37,057 nt of DNA, from the NCBI GenBank assembly GCA_027024225.1, contig JALVSR010000068.1, positions 1 to 37,057 on the forward strand, written 5' to 3'. Under the pieces are notes generated by a model that was given only the letters and a program-made list of their open reading frames with translations, ran no database searches and had not been told where the DNA came from. This document shows, one piece after another, positions 11,546 to 25,232 of this stretch (positions are counted from its first letter, which is position 1; each line of letters opens with the position of its first letter). The translations under genes and the position numbers were made by a program. Source of the stretch: Hyphomicrobiales bacterium (GTDB lineage: Bacteria; Pseudomonadota; Alphaproteobacteria; Rhizobiales; Aestuariivirgaceae).

Positions 11546-12115
11546 ATGCAGCAGCCCCAGGCGGATATCAAGCGAATGCGCGCGGCGCGGCAAAGGCTGG
11601 CGCGGGTGCGCCAGCGCATCAGGCGGCTTTCGTGGATGGCGCGCACACCGGAAAGTCTCGACCGCGACGTGCCGGTGCTGTCGCGCTCGGCCTTCGTGCG
11701 GGCGCTGGCGCGCTTTCAGGCCATTCGCCTGCGCGAGGAAAAGGCCAGCCTGCTGGTGCTGTGCATCGACCGGGACAATGTGGCCCTGCGCCGTGCCGTG
11801 GCCATGCATCTGCTGGAAAACACCCGCAATTGCGACACCGTGGGGTGCGCCGACGCCCGCACGTTCCTGGTGTTGCTGAAGGGAGCGGACGAGGACGGTG
11901 CCGCAACGGCGGCCGCCCGACTGTACAACGAGATCCGGCGGCTGGCCGTGCGCATGGGATATCTGTTGCGCATCGGCGCCTTTTGCATGCCGGTGGCGGA
12001 CAGCCCCGGCGCGGCGGACATCATGCGGGCGGTGGACGCGTTGACGAAACAGGCCGATACCGCCGGCGTGATTCATGTGGGGCAATGGCGCCGGGCTTCT
12101 CCCGGGATCGTCTGA
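11546..12115 (+). CDS. Degenerate GGDEF-like domain protein
   Basis: This 189-aa cytoplasmic protein has a basic N-terminus rich in Arg, then a domain that lines up by pattern with diguanylate cyclases. VLSRSAFVRALARF resembles the LTGLxNRRAF helix start, LLVLCIDRDNVAL the DID-like metal-binding strand, and VGCADARTFLVLLKGAD the signature hairpin. YLLRIGAFCMPV and AVDALTKQADTAG match the last strand and helix. At the signature site DARTF (103-107) replaces GGDEF, so cyclase activity is not expected. It could bind nucleotide or protein, or have lost function. The family call is inference from order and spacing. CNNM follows after 46 bp on the same strand. The start is supported only by a loosely spaced ggaag. 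Confidence 0.6.
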   Translation: MQQPQADIKRMRAARQRLARVRQRIRRLSWMARTPESLDRDVPVLSRSAFVRALARFQAIRLREEKASLLVLCIDRDNVALRRAVAMHLLENTRNCDTVGCADARTFLVLLKGADEDGAATAAARLYNEIRRLAVRMGYLLRIGAFCMPVADSPGAADIMRAVDALTKQADTAGVIHVGQWRRASPGIV

Positions 12116-12161
12116 TCCCGGTCGGCCATTTCCGCGAACAGCCATGTGAAAGATCCGTGAC

Positions 12162-13484
12162 ATGGACAACTGGCTTCTCATTGTCAGCGTTGTTGGCCTG
12201 TTGTTGCTCTCCGCCCTGTTTTCCGGGTCGGAAACAGCGCTGACGGCGGCCTCGCGCGCCCGCATCACCCATATGGCACGCCAAGGCGATGCACGGGCGC
12301 TGATCCTGAAGTCGTTGCTGGACATGCCGGAGCGGCTCATCGGCGCCATCCTGCTGGGCAACAACCTCGTCAACATTCTCGCCTCGGCCCTGACCACCGC
12401 CCTGTTCATCGAGCTGTTCGGGCAGACTGGCGTGGTCTGGGCCACTTTCATCATGACGGCGTTGGTGCTGGTGTTCGGCGAGGTCCTGCCCAAGACCTAC
12501 GCCATCCTGAATCCGGAGCGCGTGGCGCTGAAGGTGGCGCCATTGATGCGCTGGGTGGTGCGCATCTTCGCGCCGGTGGTGATGGTGGTGGAGGCGCTGG
12601 TGCGACAAGTGCTGAAGCTGCTGGGAGCGAACGTGGAGCGCGCGCACAACGTGCTGTCCTTTCGCGAAGAGCTGCGCGGAGCCATCGAGATGCACCGCGA
12701 GCAGCAGAAAAAGACCAGCCGCGACCTGTTCATGCTGGATGGGGTGCTGGACCTGCAGGACCTGACCGTGGGCGACGTGATGGTGCATCGCACGCGGATG
12801 AAAAGCATCGACATTTCCCGCAAGCCGTCGGAGATTCTCGACTACGTCCTCAGGCACGGCTACACGCGTTATCCCGTCTGGGAGGAAAACCCGGACAACA
12901 TCATCGGCGTGCTGCATGCGCGCGATCTGCTCTCCGCCCTGGCGGGGGCGAAGGGTGACATCAACCAGATCGATATCCGCAGCCTGCTGTTGCCGGCCTG
13001 GTTCGTGCCGGAACACACGCCCCTGCAGGAACAACTGGCGGCCTTTCTGCGGCGCAAGATGCACTTCGCCATCGTGGTGGACGAATATGGCGAGGTGCAG
13101 GGGCTGGTGACGCTGGAAGACATCATGGAGGAGATCGTCGGCGACATCGCGGATGAGCATGACCGGGCATTGCAGCATGTGCAGCAGGAGGGCGAGGCCT
13201 TCATCGTCGATGGCTCCATGCCGGTGCGCGACCTCAACCGCATCTATGGATGGAACCTGCCCGAGGACAAGGCCACCACCATCGCCGGGCTCATCATCCA
13301 CGAGGCCCAGACCATCCCGGAAGTGGGGCAGACCTACACGTTTCACGGCTTCAGGTTCGAGATACTGGCGCGCGAGCGCCATCGCATCACCCGTATTCGC
13401 ATGCAGCCGCAGAATCTGTCCTCTCAGGGCGGGCGGCGCAAGACCGGGTCCGAAAGCCACTCCTCCGCCGAATCCGCCTCATGA
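12162..13484 (+). CDS. CNNM/CorC-type transporter (hemolysin family, DUF21-CBS)
   Basis: This 440-aa inner-membrane protein belongs to the CNNM/CorC family, linked to Mg2+ or Co2+ export and resistance. The N-terminal DUF21 domain (about 1-195) has LLLSALFSGSETALTAASR, LLGNNLVNILASAL and VFGEVLPKTYA. A CBS pair (about 205-335) includes VGDVMVHRTRM, GYTRYPVWEENPDNIIGVLHARDL and FAIVVDEYGEVQGLVTLEDI. A CorC_HlyC domain follows to about residue 428 (VDGSMPVRDLNRIYGWNLP). The substrate ion is not decided by sequence. It probably shares a transcript with the GGDEF-like gene and converges on tsaD with a 130-bp gap. Confidence 0.93.
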   Translation: MDNWLLIVSVVGLLLLSALFSGSETALTAASRARITHMARQGDARALILKSLLDMPERLIGAILLGNNLVNILASALTTALFIELFGQTGVVWATFIMTALVLVFGEVLPKTYAILNPERVALKVAPLMRWVVRIFAPVVMVVEALVRQVLKLLGANVERAHNVLSFREELRGAIEMHREQQKKTSRDLFMLDGVLDLQDLTVGDVMVHRTRMKSIDISRKPSEILDYVLRHGYTRYPVWEENPDNIIGVLHARDLLSALAGAKGDINQIDIRSLLLPAWFVPEHTPLQEQLAAFLRRKMHFAIVVDEYGEVQGLVTLEDIMEEIVGDIADEHDRALQHVQQEGEAFIVDGSMPVRDLNRIYGWNLPEDKATTIAGLIIHEAQTIPEVGQTYTFHGFRFEILARERHRITRIRMQPQNLSSQGGRRKTGSESHSSAESAS

Positions 13485-13614
13485 AGGGGCGTCATGCGGT
13501 AATGCGCGAAGAACCATCCGCTGCTCCGCGCCGCCGCCCGCCTGCCAAATCATGACAAGGGAGTGGGATTGGCGCGGGGAGGATTGCGCCGGACAACCCT
13601 TGCGCCCGCGTGGA

Positions 13615-14754
13615 TCATCCTTTCACGCCGGCAAAGGGAGCGGGCTCGGCTTTCTCATCCAGTGGCCAGCGCGGACGCGCGGACACGGAAAGCGGCGCCG
13701 TTTCGCCCCGCAAGAGCTTGAGCGCCCCGGCATAGGCCACCATGGCGGCATTGTCCGTGCACAGCGCCGGCGGTGGCACCGAAAGCGCAAAGCCCTGTGC
13801 CGCTGCCACCTCTTCCAACGCGGCGCGGATGGCCCTGTTGGCGGCCACGCCACCGGCCAGCACAAGATAGGGGTGCTTGACCTCCGGATGCATTTCCCGG
13901 AACCGGCGGCAGGCGCAGGCCACGCGGTCGGCCAGCGTTTCCACCACCGCCTGCTGGAACGAGGCGCAGATGTCCGCCTTGTCCTGCTCGCCCAGATCCG
14001 GCCCCAGCTCCAGGATGGCCGTACGCACCGCCGTTTTCAGACCGGAAAAGGAAAAATGGCATTCCTTCCGGCCCAGCATGGGCCGGGGGAACCTGAAGCG
14101 CTGGGAGTCGCCCTTTTGCGCCATGCGCTCCACCACCGGGCCGCCCGGATAGCCCAGCCCCAGCATCTTCGCCACCTTGTCGAAGGCCTCGCCCAGGGCG
14201 TCGTCGATGGTGGTGCCCAGCCGCCGGTAGGCGCCCACGTCGTCCACCGAGATGAGCTGCGTGTGCCCGCCCGAAACCAGCAACAACAGGTAGGGCGGCC
14301 TTACCCGCGGGTCGCTGAGCATGGGCGAGAGCGCGTGGGCCTCGAGATGATTCACCGCCACCAGCGGCAGGCGGCGGGCCAGGGCAATGGCCTTGCCGCT
14401 CATCAGCCCCACCATCAGCCCGCCGATCAGCCCCGGTCCGGCGGTGGCGGCCACGGCGTCGATCTCGTCCCAGCCAAGCCCCGCCTGTTCCAGCGCCGCC
14501 AGAATCAGCCTGTCCAGCCGCGAGACATGCGCGCGCGCGGCAATCTCCGGCACCACGCCGCCAAAGGCCGCGTGCTCCTTCACCTGCGAATAGACAACGT
14601 TGGAAAGGATCTCGCCGCAGCCTTGCGCATCCACGCGCACCACCGCCGCGGCCGTCTCGTCGCAGGAGGTTTCCAGCCCCAGCACGGTCACGGGCGGTTT
14701 TGCGCGCGCCTTTTGCGGCGCATGTTCCAGGCGCTTTTTGCTTGCCTTGTTCAT
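13615..14754 (-). CDS. tsaD: tRNA N6-adenosine threonylcarbamoyltransferase
   Basis: TsaD transfers the threonylcarbamoyl group to A37 of ANN-decoding tRNAs, working with TsaB and TsaE, neither of which is in the window. At 379 aa it is longer than the E. coli protein (337 aa), partly because of a basic 20-residue N-terminal extension. Motifs are [15 protein letters not shown] (25-39), [10 protein letters not shown] with metal ligands His136 and His140, LVSGGHTQL, and the C-terminal [13 protein letters not shown] and CTDNAAMVA. The start is divergent from hemC with a 59-bp gap, a very common alphaproteobacterial arrangement, so both promoters must sit in or near that gap. Confidence 0.97.
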
Positions 14755-14813
14755 GCCTGCCCTTTTATCTCTGCCGGCAACGGGTTTCCACGTTTTTCAT
14801 CGGGGACAGGCAC

Positions 14814-15728
14814 ATGAGCATCATCCGCATCGGCACCCGCGGCTCGCAGCTGGCGCTGGCCCAGGCGAGGGAGACGAAGGCCCGCCTCATGCAGGCGCAT
14901 GGCCTGTCGGATGAAGATATAGAGCTTGTCATCATAAAGACCACGGGAGACATGGTGCGCGACCGTCCGCTGGCCGACATCGGCGGCAAGGGCCTGTTCA
15001 CCAAGGAAATCGAGGAAGCCCTGCTGGACGGGCGCGTCGATCTGGCCGTGCATTCCATGAAGGACGTGCCGGCGGAGCTGCCCGCGGGTCTTGCCATCGT
15101 CTGCCACCTGCCGCGCGAGGATGCGCGCGATGCCTTCCTCTCGCCCAAGGCGGAAAGCATCGATGCCCTGCCCGAGGGCGCGGTGGTGGGCACCTCCTCG
15201 GTACGCCGCGCGGCGCAGTTGCTGGCCATGCGGCCGGATGTGAAGGTGGTGCCCTTTCGCGGCAACGTGGACACGCGCCTGCGCAAGCTGGAAGAAGGCG
15301 TGGCGGATGCCACCTTCCTGGCCTGCGCCGGGCTGAATCGGCTGGGCCTGTCGGAGAAGATCACCCAGGCCGTGCCGGAAGACGTGATGTTGCCGGCGGT
15401 GGCTCAAGGGGCCATAGGCATCGAGACGCGCGAGGACGATACGCGCACGCGTGCGCTGCTGGCCCCCCTGAACGACGAGGAAACCGCCGTGCGAGTGGCG
15501 GCCGAGCGCGGCTTTCTCATCCGGTTGGAGGGCTCCTGCCGCACGCCGCTGGCCGCGCATGCGGTGATGCGCGATGGCGCGGTGCACCTGCGCGTGGAAG
15601 CGCTGACTCTGGACGGCACGCGGCGCTGGCGCGCAGAGCGCACCGGCGCGCCGGAAGATGCCTTCGCCATGGGTGCGGATGCGGCCGAGGAAATCCTGAG
15701 AGAGGCCGGCGAGGCGCTGGTGCGCTGA
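14814..15728 (+). CDS. hemC: Porphobilinogen deaminase (hydroxymethylbilane synthase)
   Basis: This enzyme polymerises four porphobilinogens into hydroxymethylbilane for heme, siroheme and cobalamin. The 304-aa protein starts MSIIRIGTRGSQLALAQA. An upstream in-frame start at 14700 would run back into tsaD on the other strand and is rejected. The active site shows HSMKDVP with Asp84, RGNVDTRLRKL, and Cys242 in LEGSCRTPLAAHA, which carries the dipyrromethane cofactor. A gacagg site precedes the ATG. No hemD follows; hemC instead converges on korB with a 39-bp gap. It shares the tetrapyrrole pathway with cobS about 4 kb away. Confidence 0.97.
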   Translation: MSIIRIGTRGSQLALAQARETKARLMQAHGLSDEDIELVIIKTTGDMVRDRPLADIGGKGLFTKEIEEALLDGRVDLAVHSMKDVPAELPAGLAIVCHLPREDARDAFLSPKAESIDALPEGAVVGTSSVRRAAQLLAMRPDVKVVPFRGNVDTRLRKLEEGVADATFLACAGLNRLGLSEKITQAVPEDVMLPAVAQGAIGIETREDDTRTRALLAPLNDEETAVRVAAERGFLIRLEGSCRTPLAAHAVMRDGAVHLRVEALTLDGTRRWRAERTGAPEDAFAMGADAAEEILREAGEALVR

Positions 15729-22737: not shown

Positions 22738-23232
22738 ATGGTCAACACGATTCGCATCATCGGCATCGACCCGGGGCTGAACCACACCGGCTGGGGCGTC
22801 ATAGAGGCGCGCGGCAACGACCTCTCGCACGTCGCCAACGGCACGGTGAGCGCAAAGGCGAGCGACCCGCTGGCCACGCGGCTGATGATCATCCACAACG
22901 CGCTGATGGAAATCATCCATGCTTATCAGCCACGCGAGGCAGCCATCGAGGAAACCTTCGTCAACCGCGACGCGCGCGCAACGCTGAAGCTGGGGCATGC
23001 GCGCGCCGCGGCCATGCTCGCCGCCGCCCGTTGCGAGCTGACAATCGCCGAATACGCGCCGAATCGGGTGAAAAAGGCCATCGTCGGCGCGGGCCACGCA
23101 CAGAAACAGCAGGTGGCGGCCATGGTGAACATGCTGCTGCCGAAGGCCAGGCCTGAGAGCGCCGATGCGGCGGACGCGCTGGCCGTGGCCATTTGCCATG
23201 CGCACTACCGCACGGCGCTGACGGCAAAATGA
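22738..23232 (+). CDS. ruvC: Crossover junction endodeoxyribonuclease RuvC
   Basis: RuvC is the Holliday-junction resolvase, a dimer that cuts junctions after RuvAB branch migration. The 164-aa protein shows the four catalytic acids of the family: Asp11 in IGIDPGLNHTGWG, Glu71 in AAIEETFVNRD, and Asp143 and Asp146 in SADAADALAVAICH. The length matches the E. coli protein (173 aa). The ATG at 22738 gives the standard start, although its ribosome-binding site is weak. A longer frame from 22492 runs back over leuD on the other strand and is rejected. ruvA follows after 206 bp holding two large inverted repeats, a wider gap than usual for this cluster. Confidence 0.96.
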   Translation: MVNTIRIIGIDPGLNHTGWGVIEARGNDLSHVANGTVSAKASDPLATRLMIIHNALMEIIHAYQPREAAIEETFVNRDARATLKLGHARAAAMLAAARCELTIAEYAPNRVKKAIVGAGHAQKQQVAAMVNMLLPKARPESADAADALAVAICHAHYRTALTAK

Positions 23233-23255
23233 TGGAAAAATGCATAATGAGATGA

Positions 23256-23316
23256 CCTCTCCCGCCGGAAAGGAAAAAGTGCAGACAAGTGCACTTTTCC
23301 TTTCCGACGGGGGAGG
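23256..23316. repeat. Large inverted repeat 1 in the ruvC-ruvA gap
   Basis: The arms at 23256-23283 and 23290-23316 are about 27 bp long and pair almost completely, with two mismatches and one extra A; the loop is gacaag. The centre contains gtgca/tgcac next to runs of A and T. The element starts 24 bp after the ruvC stop. It is far longer than a normal terminator stem and lacks a clean T-run. It could fold as RNA (3' end of ruvC, leader of ruvA) or extrude as a DNA cruciform. Confidence 0.85.
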
Positions 23317-23332
23317 CAAGAATGATGTTTCC

Positions 23333-23406
23333 GTCCAGCGGATGGTTGTCAAGGGGCCTGCCCGCCAAAGGCGGCGCTCCGCGCCCTTGACAACCATCCA
23401 CTGGAC
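23333..23406. repeat. Large inverted repeat 2 in the ruvC-ruvA gap
   Basis: The arms at 23333-23355 and 23384-23406 are each 23 bp, starting gtccag and ending ctggac, with one mismatch. The 28-bp loop holds its own perfect hairpin, ccgcc-aaa-ggcgg, at 23362-23374. It lies 16 bp after inverted repeat 1 and ends 32 bp before the ruvA start codon, so it falls in the ruvA leader. The arm sequences differ from those of repeat 1, and I did not see a second copy elsewhere in the window. Confidence 0.85.
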
Positions 23407-23438
23407 GAACACGCAGAACACATGGAAAGGCGGACCTC

Positions 23439-24065
23439 ATGAACATGATCGCCAAGCTGCGCGGGCGGGTGGATTCCCGCGGTGAGGACTGGGTCGTCAT
23501 CGATGTGGGCGGCGTGGGATATCTGGCCGAATGTTCCGCCCGCACGTTGGTGCAACTACCCGGCCCCGGCGAGGCGGTGGAAATCTTTACCCGCATGCTG
23601 GTGTCCGAATCCGCCATCCGGCTGGTGGGCTTTGCCGATGAGGCCGAGCGCGAATGGTTCGACGTGCTGGCCGCCGTCTCCGGCGTGGGGCCGAAGGTGG
23701 CGCTCGCCCTGCTTTCCGCGCTGGCGCCGAACGAGCTTTCCATGGCGCTGGCCAGCGGCGATACGGCCATGCTCACCCGCGCCAACGGCGTAGGGCCAAA
23801 GCTGGCCCGCAGGCTGGTGGCGGAGCTGAAGGACAAGGCGCTCACCATCGGTGCCGGCGCGTTGGAATTGCCGAAGGAGGCCGTGGCGGGCGTCGCCGCC
23901 GCCGCCACCTCGCAAAACGCCGCCGATGCCGTCTCCGCGCTGGTCAACCTGGGCTACGGCCAGTCGCAGGCCTCCGCCGCCGTCGCCGCCGCCATGAAGC
24001 TGGCGGGCGAGGACGCGGAGACGGGCGAGCTCATCCGGCTGGCATTGAAGCAGTTGGCGGAGTAA
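23439..24065 (+). CDS. ruvA: Holliday junction branch migration protein RuvA
   Basis: RuvA binds Holliday junctions as a tetramer and targets the RuvB motor to them. The 208-aa protein has an N-terminal OB-fold (MNMIAKLRGRVDS onward), a helix-hairpin-helix region with AAVSGVGPKVALALLSAL and ANGVGPKLARRLVAELKDK, and a C-terminal RuvB-binding domain (SALVNLGYGQSQASAAVAAAMK). Most RuvA proteins start MIxKLxG, which would match the ATG at 23445, but ggaaagg sits eight bases before the ATG at 23439, so that start is preferred. ruvB follows after 39 bp. Confidence 0.96.
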   Translation: MNMIAKLRGRVDSRGEDWVVIDVGGVGYLAECSARTLVQLPGPGEAVEIFTRMLVSESAIRLVGFADEAEREWFDVLAAVSGVGPKVALALLSALAPNELSMALASGDTAMLTRANGVGPKLARRLVAELKDKALTIGAGALELPKEAVAGVAAAATSQNAADAVSALVNLGYGQSQASAAVAAAMKLAGEDAETGELIRLALKQLAE

Positions 24066-25160: not shown

Positions 25161-25196
25161 TTCTCGTGTTTCACGCTCCACGGACAGAATGGCAAG

Positions 25197-25232
25197 GAAG
25201 CGCCAATGGCGAGAAAACGCCATTGGCGCTTC
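25197..25232. terminator. Perfect 15-bp hairpin between ruvB and rlmH
   Basis: gaagcgccaatggcg at 25197-25211 pairs perfectly with 25218-25232 around the six-base loop agaaaa. It lies in the 85-bp gap between convergent genes and is symmetric, so it could stop or stabilise transcripts from both sides. It lacks a long T-run (only ttctct follows on the plus strand), so it may act as a 3'-end stabiliser rather than a strong intrinsic terminator. Confidence 0.7.

Follow-up and report, generated by a model that had tools for sequence, protein, structure and literature searches.

A dispersed two-hairpin intergenic repeat fills the ruvC-ruvA gap of a Hyphomicrobiales bacterium and keeps its stems paired while their sequence drifts

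In the window analysed here (the whole stretch of 37,057 nucleotides), ruvC and ruvA are separated by 206 bp, and the question raised by this locus is what the two long inverted repeats occupying that gap are. The first-pass annotation had described two such repeats in a gap of this size, and both the repeats and the size proved right; the second repeat ends at 23409, slightly past the 23406 given for the span. The features of the locus are:

22738..23232, forward strand: ruvC, the upstream neighbour (start taken from a codon-usage gene caller)
23256..23316, no strand assigned: HP1, the partner hairpin, about 26 pairs, with a purine-rich inner left arm
23330..23409, forward strand: HP2, the hallmark hairpin of the family (covariance model R1, 68.1 bits on the forward and 48.6 on the reverse strand)
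23330..23346, no strand assigned: HP2 left outer arm, 17 nt, locus-specific
23347..23354, no strand assigned: left half of the HP2 inner stem, TGTCAAGG
23355..23384, no strand assigned: HP2 tip, with a pair of small hairpins, in the opposite orientation to that of the G006 ortholog
23385..23392, no strand assigned: right half of the HP2 inner stem, CCTTGACA
23393..23409, no strand assigned: HP2 right outer arm, 17 nt, locus-specific and complementary to the left arm
23439..24065, forward strand: ruvA, the downstream neighbour
25197..25232, no strand assigned: HP4, the second partner hairpin of the family, here in exact copy 3' of ruvB and with no HP2 beside it

HP1 forms 26 pairs with one mismatch and one bulge (-44.1 kcal/mol), and in HP2 (-60.6 kcal/mol) arms of 25 bp enclose a 30-nt tip with a fold of its own; three pairs of its outer arms, counted over 20 nt, are not Watson-Crick. 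In a window-wide scan for inverted repeats with arms at most 200 apart, HP2, with 40 nt and 80% complementarity, is the longest of the 18 pairs listed, and HP1 (22 nt, 91%) has the highest complementarity among the listed pairs of at least 20 nt; three further inverted repeats in the window equal or exceed HP1 in length, but their complementarity is merely 72-79%. The 206-nt gap folds at -111.4 kcal/mol, compared with -63.5 +/- 4.6 for dinucleotide shuffles (z = -10.5), and none of 200 shuffles was as low. The whole window gave no Rfam match at the gathering score. A consensus scan of positions 23100-23600 identified no terminator-like and no promoter-like site, in agreement with the earlier remark that neither repeat looks like a simple terminator.

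The ruvA gene was located in nine of the 11 genomes of the genus, and the comparison of the junction rests on those nine. Hairpins stand between ruvC and ruvA in only two of them, G000 (206-nt gap) and G006 (202-nt gap); the two genes overlap by 4 nt in six others and lie 19 nt apart in G002. We infer that the hairpins were inserted at this junction and not lost from the other genomes, and the likely effect at ruv is that the tight ruvC-ruvA junction was lost. The closest ruvA loci by search belong to metagenome bins (JALUAB010000239.1, JALVFB010000021.1 and JALSGQ010000157.1), the host being an uncultured member of the Hyphomicrobiales.

When the own genome (2.22 Mb, 155 contigs) was queried with the 206-bp gap, many scattered partial matches were obtained, several with adjacent hairpins. 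Searches for the exact core of HP2, TGTCAAGG...CCTTGACA, gave 21 sites in this genome and matches in eight of the 11 genus genomes, counting the own genome; the 49 other genomes examined had none. The covariance model R1 was built from 52 copies of HP2. Its search is biased to paired copies, so that broken copies are under-counted, and it matches at least 34 distinct loci of the own genome; nearly all of these HP2 copies lie next to a second hairpin, and they stand between unrelated genes. Ten of the 11 genus genomes contain R1 matches, two of these ten with a single match among those listed. Under stricter filters, ten of the 69 genomes of the family-level set were matched: nine of the genus and G062, from another genus. 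This 66%-complete genome has at least six HP2 loci, and none was found in the 57 other non-genus genomes of the family; the G062 copies could reflect transfer or a binning error.

This distribution weighs against the ruv-specific readings. It had been proposed that the gap extrudes as a cruciform bound by RuvA and RuvC, through which the operon would regulate itself. The gap is indeed strongly palindromic, but the own genome has at least 34 HP2 loci, nearly all elsewhere, and the hairpins are missing from seven of the nine ruvC-ruvA junctions, so autoregulation of this kind is extremely improbable. The first-pass annotation had itself named two observations that would count against an operon-specific role, absence from sister strains and scattering at unrelated loci, and both were made. 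Regulation peculiar to ruv was rejected in view of the copies elsewhere together with the absence at seven of nine ruv loci; nothing specific to RuvA, RuvB or RuvC was found, and the hairpins in the gap are a drifting structural repeat rather than a control switch peculiar to this operon.

The copies share a modular build. In HP2, outer arms of 17 bp lead into an inner stem of 8 bp, which is capped by a tip bearing two small hairpins, and 97 of 102 copies are adjoined by a recognised partner hairpin, mostly 9-19 nt away. According to automatic labels, four of which were changed by hand, the partner is HP4 (GAAGCGCCAATGGCG...CGCCATTGGCGCTTC) in 61 copies and of the HP1 type in 36; in the remaining five it is absent, weak or something else. 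Exact HP4 occurs 18 times in the own genome and is present in eight of the 11 genus genomes. The HP1-type sequence shows compensated variants at other loci, and many of its copies have a core of the form A-tract-GTGC...GCAC-T-tract. A T-tract is missing from HP2, whose outer ends tend towards TTTC...GAAA, a polarity opposite to that of the HP1 core. At two orthologous sites HP1 and HP4 have been swapped for each other, and some arm changes may therefore come from module replacement. The window itself has, at 25169-25232, in the gap between ruvB and a convergent gene, an exact HP4 (25197-25232) preceded by the usual spacer of the module and with no HP2; this looks like a module that has lost HP2. 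Elsewhere, contig C82 of the own genome has three HP2 modules in about 3.3 kb (11747-14987; L013 and L038), two of them in codirectional gaps of an apparent peptide ABC transporter operon, the product being guessed by eye.

Gene calls for the analysis of placement came from a codon-usage caller made for this work. Copies were found between codirectional genes in 63 cases, convergent genes in 28 and divergent genes in three, with eight at contig edges, whereas the other gaps of 80 bp or more in these stretches were codirectional in 52 cases, convergent in 7 and divergent in 26 (P = 3.5e-7); copies at orthologous loci enter these counts more than once. The copies avoid divergent promoters (3/94), as REP/BIME repeats do. 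Non-MITE copies with HP4 are more often convergent than those with HP1 (P = 0.004), and HP1 copies lie mostly between codirectional genes (29 of the 33 classified). By analogy, an intercistronic or 3'-end role is plausible, and a duplex of at least 25 bp whose sequence is free to vary would be suited to protecting mRNA 3' ends or to processing by RNase III. Bidirectional intrinsic termination would account for the A-tract and T-tract cores of HP1 and for the frequent position of HP4 between convergent genes. However, it would cut operons at the codirectional gaps where most HP1 copies lie, it does not fit HP2, which lacks a T-tract and has ends of opposite polarity, and the ruv gap has no terminator-like site; we regard it as distinctly improbable.

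Some copies of the family belong to a larger element. In genome G003, six copies of about 255 bp have common terminal inverted repeats near GGGGCTGTCCTAGA and TCTAGGACAGCCCC, with HP4 and HP2 inside, and are here called MITE copies; target duplications of 8-9 bases are visible by eye at some of these elements, not all. The MITE set used here has 18 copies (six from G000, six from G003, five from G008 and one from G006); G006_L169, which is near the consensus and has compensated changes, was excluded from it, its inner stem being classed as non-MITE. In these 18 copies, divergence from the consensus is 17-19% in the body, 0.4-0.7% in the HP4 arms, 2.4-4.9% in the HP2 halves and 5.7% in the tip. 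Their arm changes are one-sided, and by eye no compensated double change is present. Across the family, the HP2 arms form a graded series, departing from the MITE consensus at anything from 0 to 15 of their 17 positions. This gradation, together with arms of about 17 bp throughout, led us to reject the idea that a core jumped into the loops of pre-existing palindromes. The earlier suggestion of a remnant of a miniature mobile element largely holds, in that the family is dispersed and has relatives inside a MITE-like element with terminal inverted repeats; the ruv copy itself has no such ends, nor do most other copies.

Candidate sources of mobility were searched for. The Y1 transposase (PF01797) was found in none of the 11 genus genomes, with five of 14 well-known genomes positive as a control, and mobility of the RAYT/REP type was rejected on this ground. 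The same 11 genomes have one IS1595-type transposase gene (L260, 1069-2028, on contig C26 of the own genome), and neither 14-base MITE end occurs at this locus within three mismatches (a looser search with 9-base ends gave many chance matches); IS1595 was therefore rejected as the parent of the MITE. As judged by eye, the gene is bounded by end repeats of its own, which resemble ATTATGGCGATAT and bear no relation to those of the MITE. Carriage by plasmids or viruses was likewise rejected, with no MITE match in the plasmid collection and no exact HP4 match in viral contigs. At three contig ends of G003 (L223 1-427, L226 5232-5659 and L227 1-340) stand copies of a repeat that are 98-99% identical over at least 340-430 bp and contain an HP4-like hairpin and HP2; the repeat may be a piece of a longer, unassembled mobile element, and Rfam identified only a tRNA on L223, L226 and L227.

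The existence of MITE relatives, the presence of the repeat at some ruv junctions and its absence from others, and the graded arm distance are all what a decaying, functionless remnant would leave, its pairing being a mere by-product of template switching. Such a remnant would not be expected to show the non-random placement described above. Moreover, the inner stem, the tip and HP4 keep their sequence better than their surroundings, and at the ABC transporter locus on C82 the hairpins are kept in four species beside a spacer that has diverged. We consider this explanation quite unlikely.

What distinguishes the family is the behaviour of the stems. The 17-bp outer arms of HP2 differ at nearly every locus and are nevertheless about 95% Watson-Crick paired. 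In 52 HP2 sequences, 97.1% of cells are paired, cells changed on both sides number 461 versus 129 +/- 11 in shuffles, and the covariation score is 0.621 versus 0.088-0.123 for slid controls. Two further measures, the number of pairs showing a double change and that of additional pair types, were not above shuffles, as expected with highly variable columns. The 52 sequences came from a pattern that fixes the inner stem, whose invariance there is by construction; in a wider set of 101 distinct copies, compensated variants of the inner stem occur. The stems have been kept paired while their sequence drifted. Compensatory changes, which the first-pass annotation took as a sign of regulation if confined to ruvC-ruvA, are thus present, but throughout the family. 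Gene conversion from other copies is thought less likely as a source, as the arms within a genome are almost all different, the MITE copies apart.

The mismatches that remain were counted in copies found by the model, not in those selected by the pattern. Non-MITE copies have 1970 Watson-Crick pairs, 32 G-U, 35 A-C and 38 others in 2075, and the MITE copies 439, 28, 5 and 3, respectively, in 475, so that MITE mismatches are mostly G-U (28/36), some shared by descent. Read in transcript orientation, the codirectional non-MITE loci have 23 G-U, 18 A-C and 19 other mismatches in 1425 pairs. A constraint at the RNA level should tolerate G-U; no G-U preference is seen outside the MITE copies.

Orthologous copies allow the rate of change to be compared with that of the adjoining genes. 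We identified 38 ortholog pairs, 21 with both flanks matched, of which 20 were used. The pair C76/L248 was excluded, as G008 has a MITE-type copy there (7 compensated, 1 single and 17 same of 25 pairs), and so were the 17 pairs with one matched flank, in most rows of which compensated changes also exceed single ones. The 20 comparisons share loci and are not independent. They comprise 340 arm pairs: 192 unchanged, 119 with a compensated double change, 22 with a single change and seven changed on both sides but unpaired. Four-fold sites of the flanking genes differ at 1767 of 6554 positions (27%), so paired double changes are about as frequent as single four-fold changes, a rate beyond that expected from stepwise compensation. 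The ten comparisons with HP1 on both sides gave 48/170 compensated versus 875/3329 four-fold changes; the arms of HP1 itself, in eight comparisons that do not include the ruv pair, have 32 compensated and two single changes in 206 pairs. At ruv, the G000/G006 pair has five of 17 arm pairs compensated and two with single changes. Transversions make up 70 of the 119 compensated changes versus 1349 of the 1767 four-fold changes; as an argument against G-U intermediates this share is weak, the four-fold sites being even richer in transversions.

The tip adds a second type of change. In four of the 20 ortholog pairs (ruv G000/G006, C154/L156, L039/L185 and L255/L252) it is inverted according to both methods used, model strand and direct alignment; ten pairs have the same orientation by both, and six are discordant or unclear. 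The pair L039/L185 has a reversed tip even though 23 of its 25 arm and inner-stem pairs are identical. Taken relative to the partner hairpin, and by automatic labels, all 18 MITE copies have the tip one way, while the other HP4 copies are divided 28 to 13.

Selection alone is the main rival to the explanation that we propose. The stems would be functional as RNA duplex or DNA palindrome, single changes would be harmful and a second change would restore pairing, with no arm copying. The young MITE copies favour it, since by eye they have one-sided changes only; so do the low divergence of their hairpins relative to the body (0.4-5.7% versus 17-19%) and the non-random placement. A harmful intermediate should, however, prevent compensated doubles from reaching the four-fold single-change rate, G-U intermediates are not enriched in the non-MITE copies, and inversion of the tip requires a separate cause. 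We judge it unlikely. Purely mechanical arm copying is also disfavoured, because the changes in MITE copies are one-sided, HP4 is invariant, the inner stem and tip are steadier and HP1 and HP4 have replaced each other; the constancy of HP4 sequence would not be explained by mere arm copying.

We therefore favour, with moderate confidence, arm copying combined with selection for intact structure. The gap probably contains a copy of a MITE-related intergenic repeat, specific to the genus and built of two hairpins, whose paired stems may drift by template switching and may act in the transcript. A two-hairpin module (HP2 with HP1 here and with HP4 elsewhere) would have been inserted into the ruvC-ruvA junction of G000/G006. 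Template switching at the hairpin during replication, a step for which we see the chances as evenly balanced, would copy one arm from the other, and the same event would flip the tip; selection would then retain the copies with intact structure. The role in the transcript is the weakest step and a tentative one, somewhat short of evenly balanced. It is proposed because copies are found at the 3' ends of genes and in codirectional gaps: by analogy with REP/BIME, the stems could act as stable duplexes, protecting the message or serving in its processing, and uncoupling ruvC from the ruvA-ruvB pair. In broader terms, the family might be inherited as structure and not as sequence, with arms rewritten, drifting at the synonymous rate, and tips that flip, and with only the inner stem, the tip and one partner keeping their sequence; to this we also give a little less than even credence.

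How long stems remain perfectly paired despite sequence change is an old question of RNA and palindrome evolution. In the present family, arms have been homogenised and tips inverted within single elements, across dozens of dispersed copies that have orthologs in several species; adjoining synonymous sites provide a clock, and a partner hairpin of invariant sequence provides an internal control. If the family is indeed inherited as structure, these copies would form a natural, replicated record of bacterial template switching and a case of strong covariation at the DNA level without RNA selection; covariation, commonly read as proof of a functional RNA, may arise in DNA.

Several known systems resemble the family in part. 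BIMEs are rarely placed between divergent genes and have roles in mRNA stability, and the REP stem has a GTAG-type foot motif. Like REP/BIME (the PU-BIME of E. coli, associated with TnpA-REP), the present repeats are dispersed intergenic palindromes in composite units that rarely lie between divergent genes. Unlike them, they occur in genomes without the Y1 transposase (0/11), have longer stems with locus-specific outer arms and, compared by eye only, begin their arms with a TTTC-like sequence and have no GTAG-type foot. The resemblance to MITEs lies in those copies that measure about 255 bp and end in inverted repeats, some with target duplications of 8-9 bp discernible by eye; the ruv copy and most others differ in having no such ends, and the Y1 and IS1595-type searches found no transposase with matching ends. 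Bacterial stem-loop sequence families (Cozzuto et al. 2008, PMC2267715) are likewise repeated intergenic stem-loops with a shared fold. Passages of that paper describe their detection through clustering of similar sequences, a procedure that the HP2 arms and HP1 would largely escape. Our search of the literature for a repeat family with compensated stems gave none recognised as the HP2 family, which is no proof of its absence from print.

The closest parallel in mode of change is with inverted repeats homogenised by template switching. As reported in PMC8604942, template switching between inverted repeats homogenises the arms and inverts the spacer; PMC8794818, the study that put template switching forward to explain how long stems stay paired, reports that it yields multi-base compensated changes in RNA genes, and treats compensated change together with loop inversion as the strongest possible support for template switching, extremely rare in rRNA. 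Both parts of this footprint were found here: arm homogenisation, with 119 compensated versus 22 one-sided changes in HP2 and 32 versus two in HP1, and spacer inversion, in four of 20 pairs by both methods. The cases reported there (PMC8604942, PMC8794818) are yeast coding genes and RNA genes, whereas the HP2 family consists of dispersed bacterial repeats with fixed arm length and many orthologous copies. The object in the ruvC-ruvA gap is therefore of a known kind, a dispersed, MITE-related intergenic palindromic repeat, and what is unusual is its mode of evolution.
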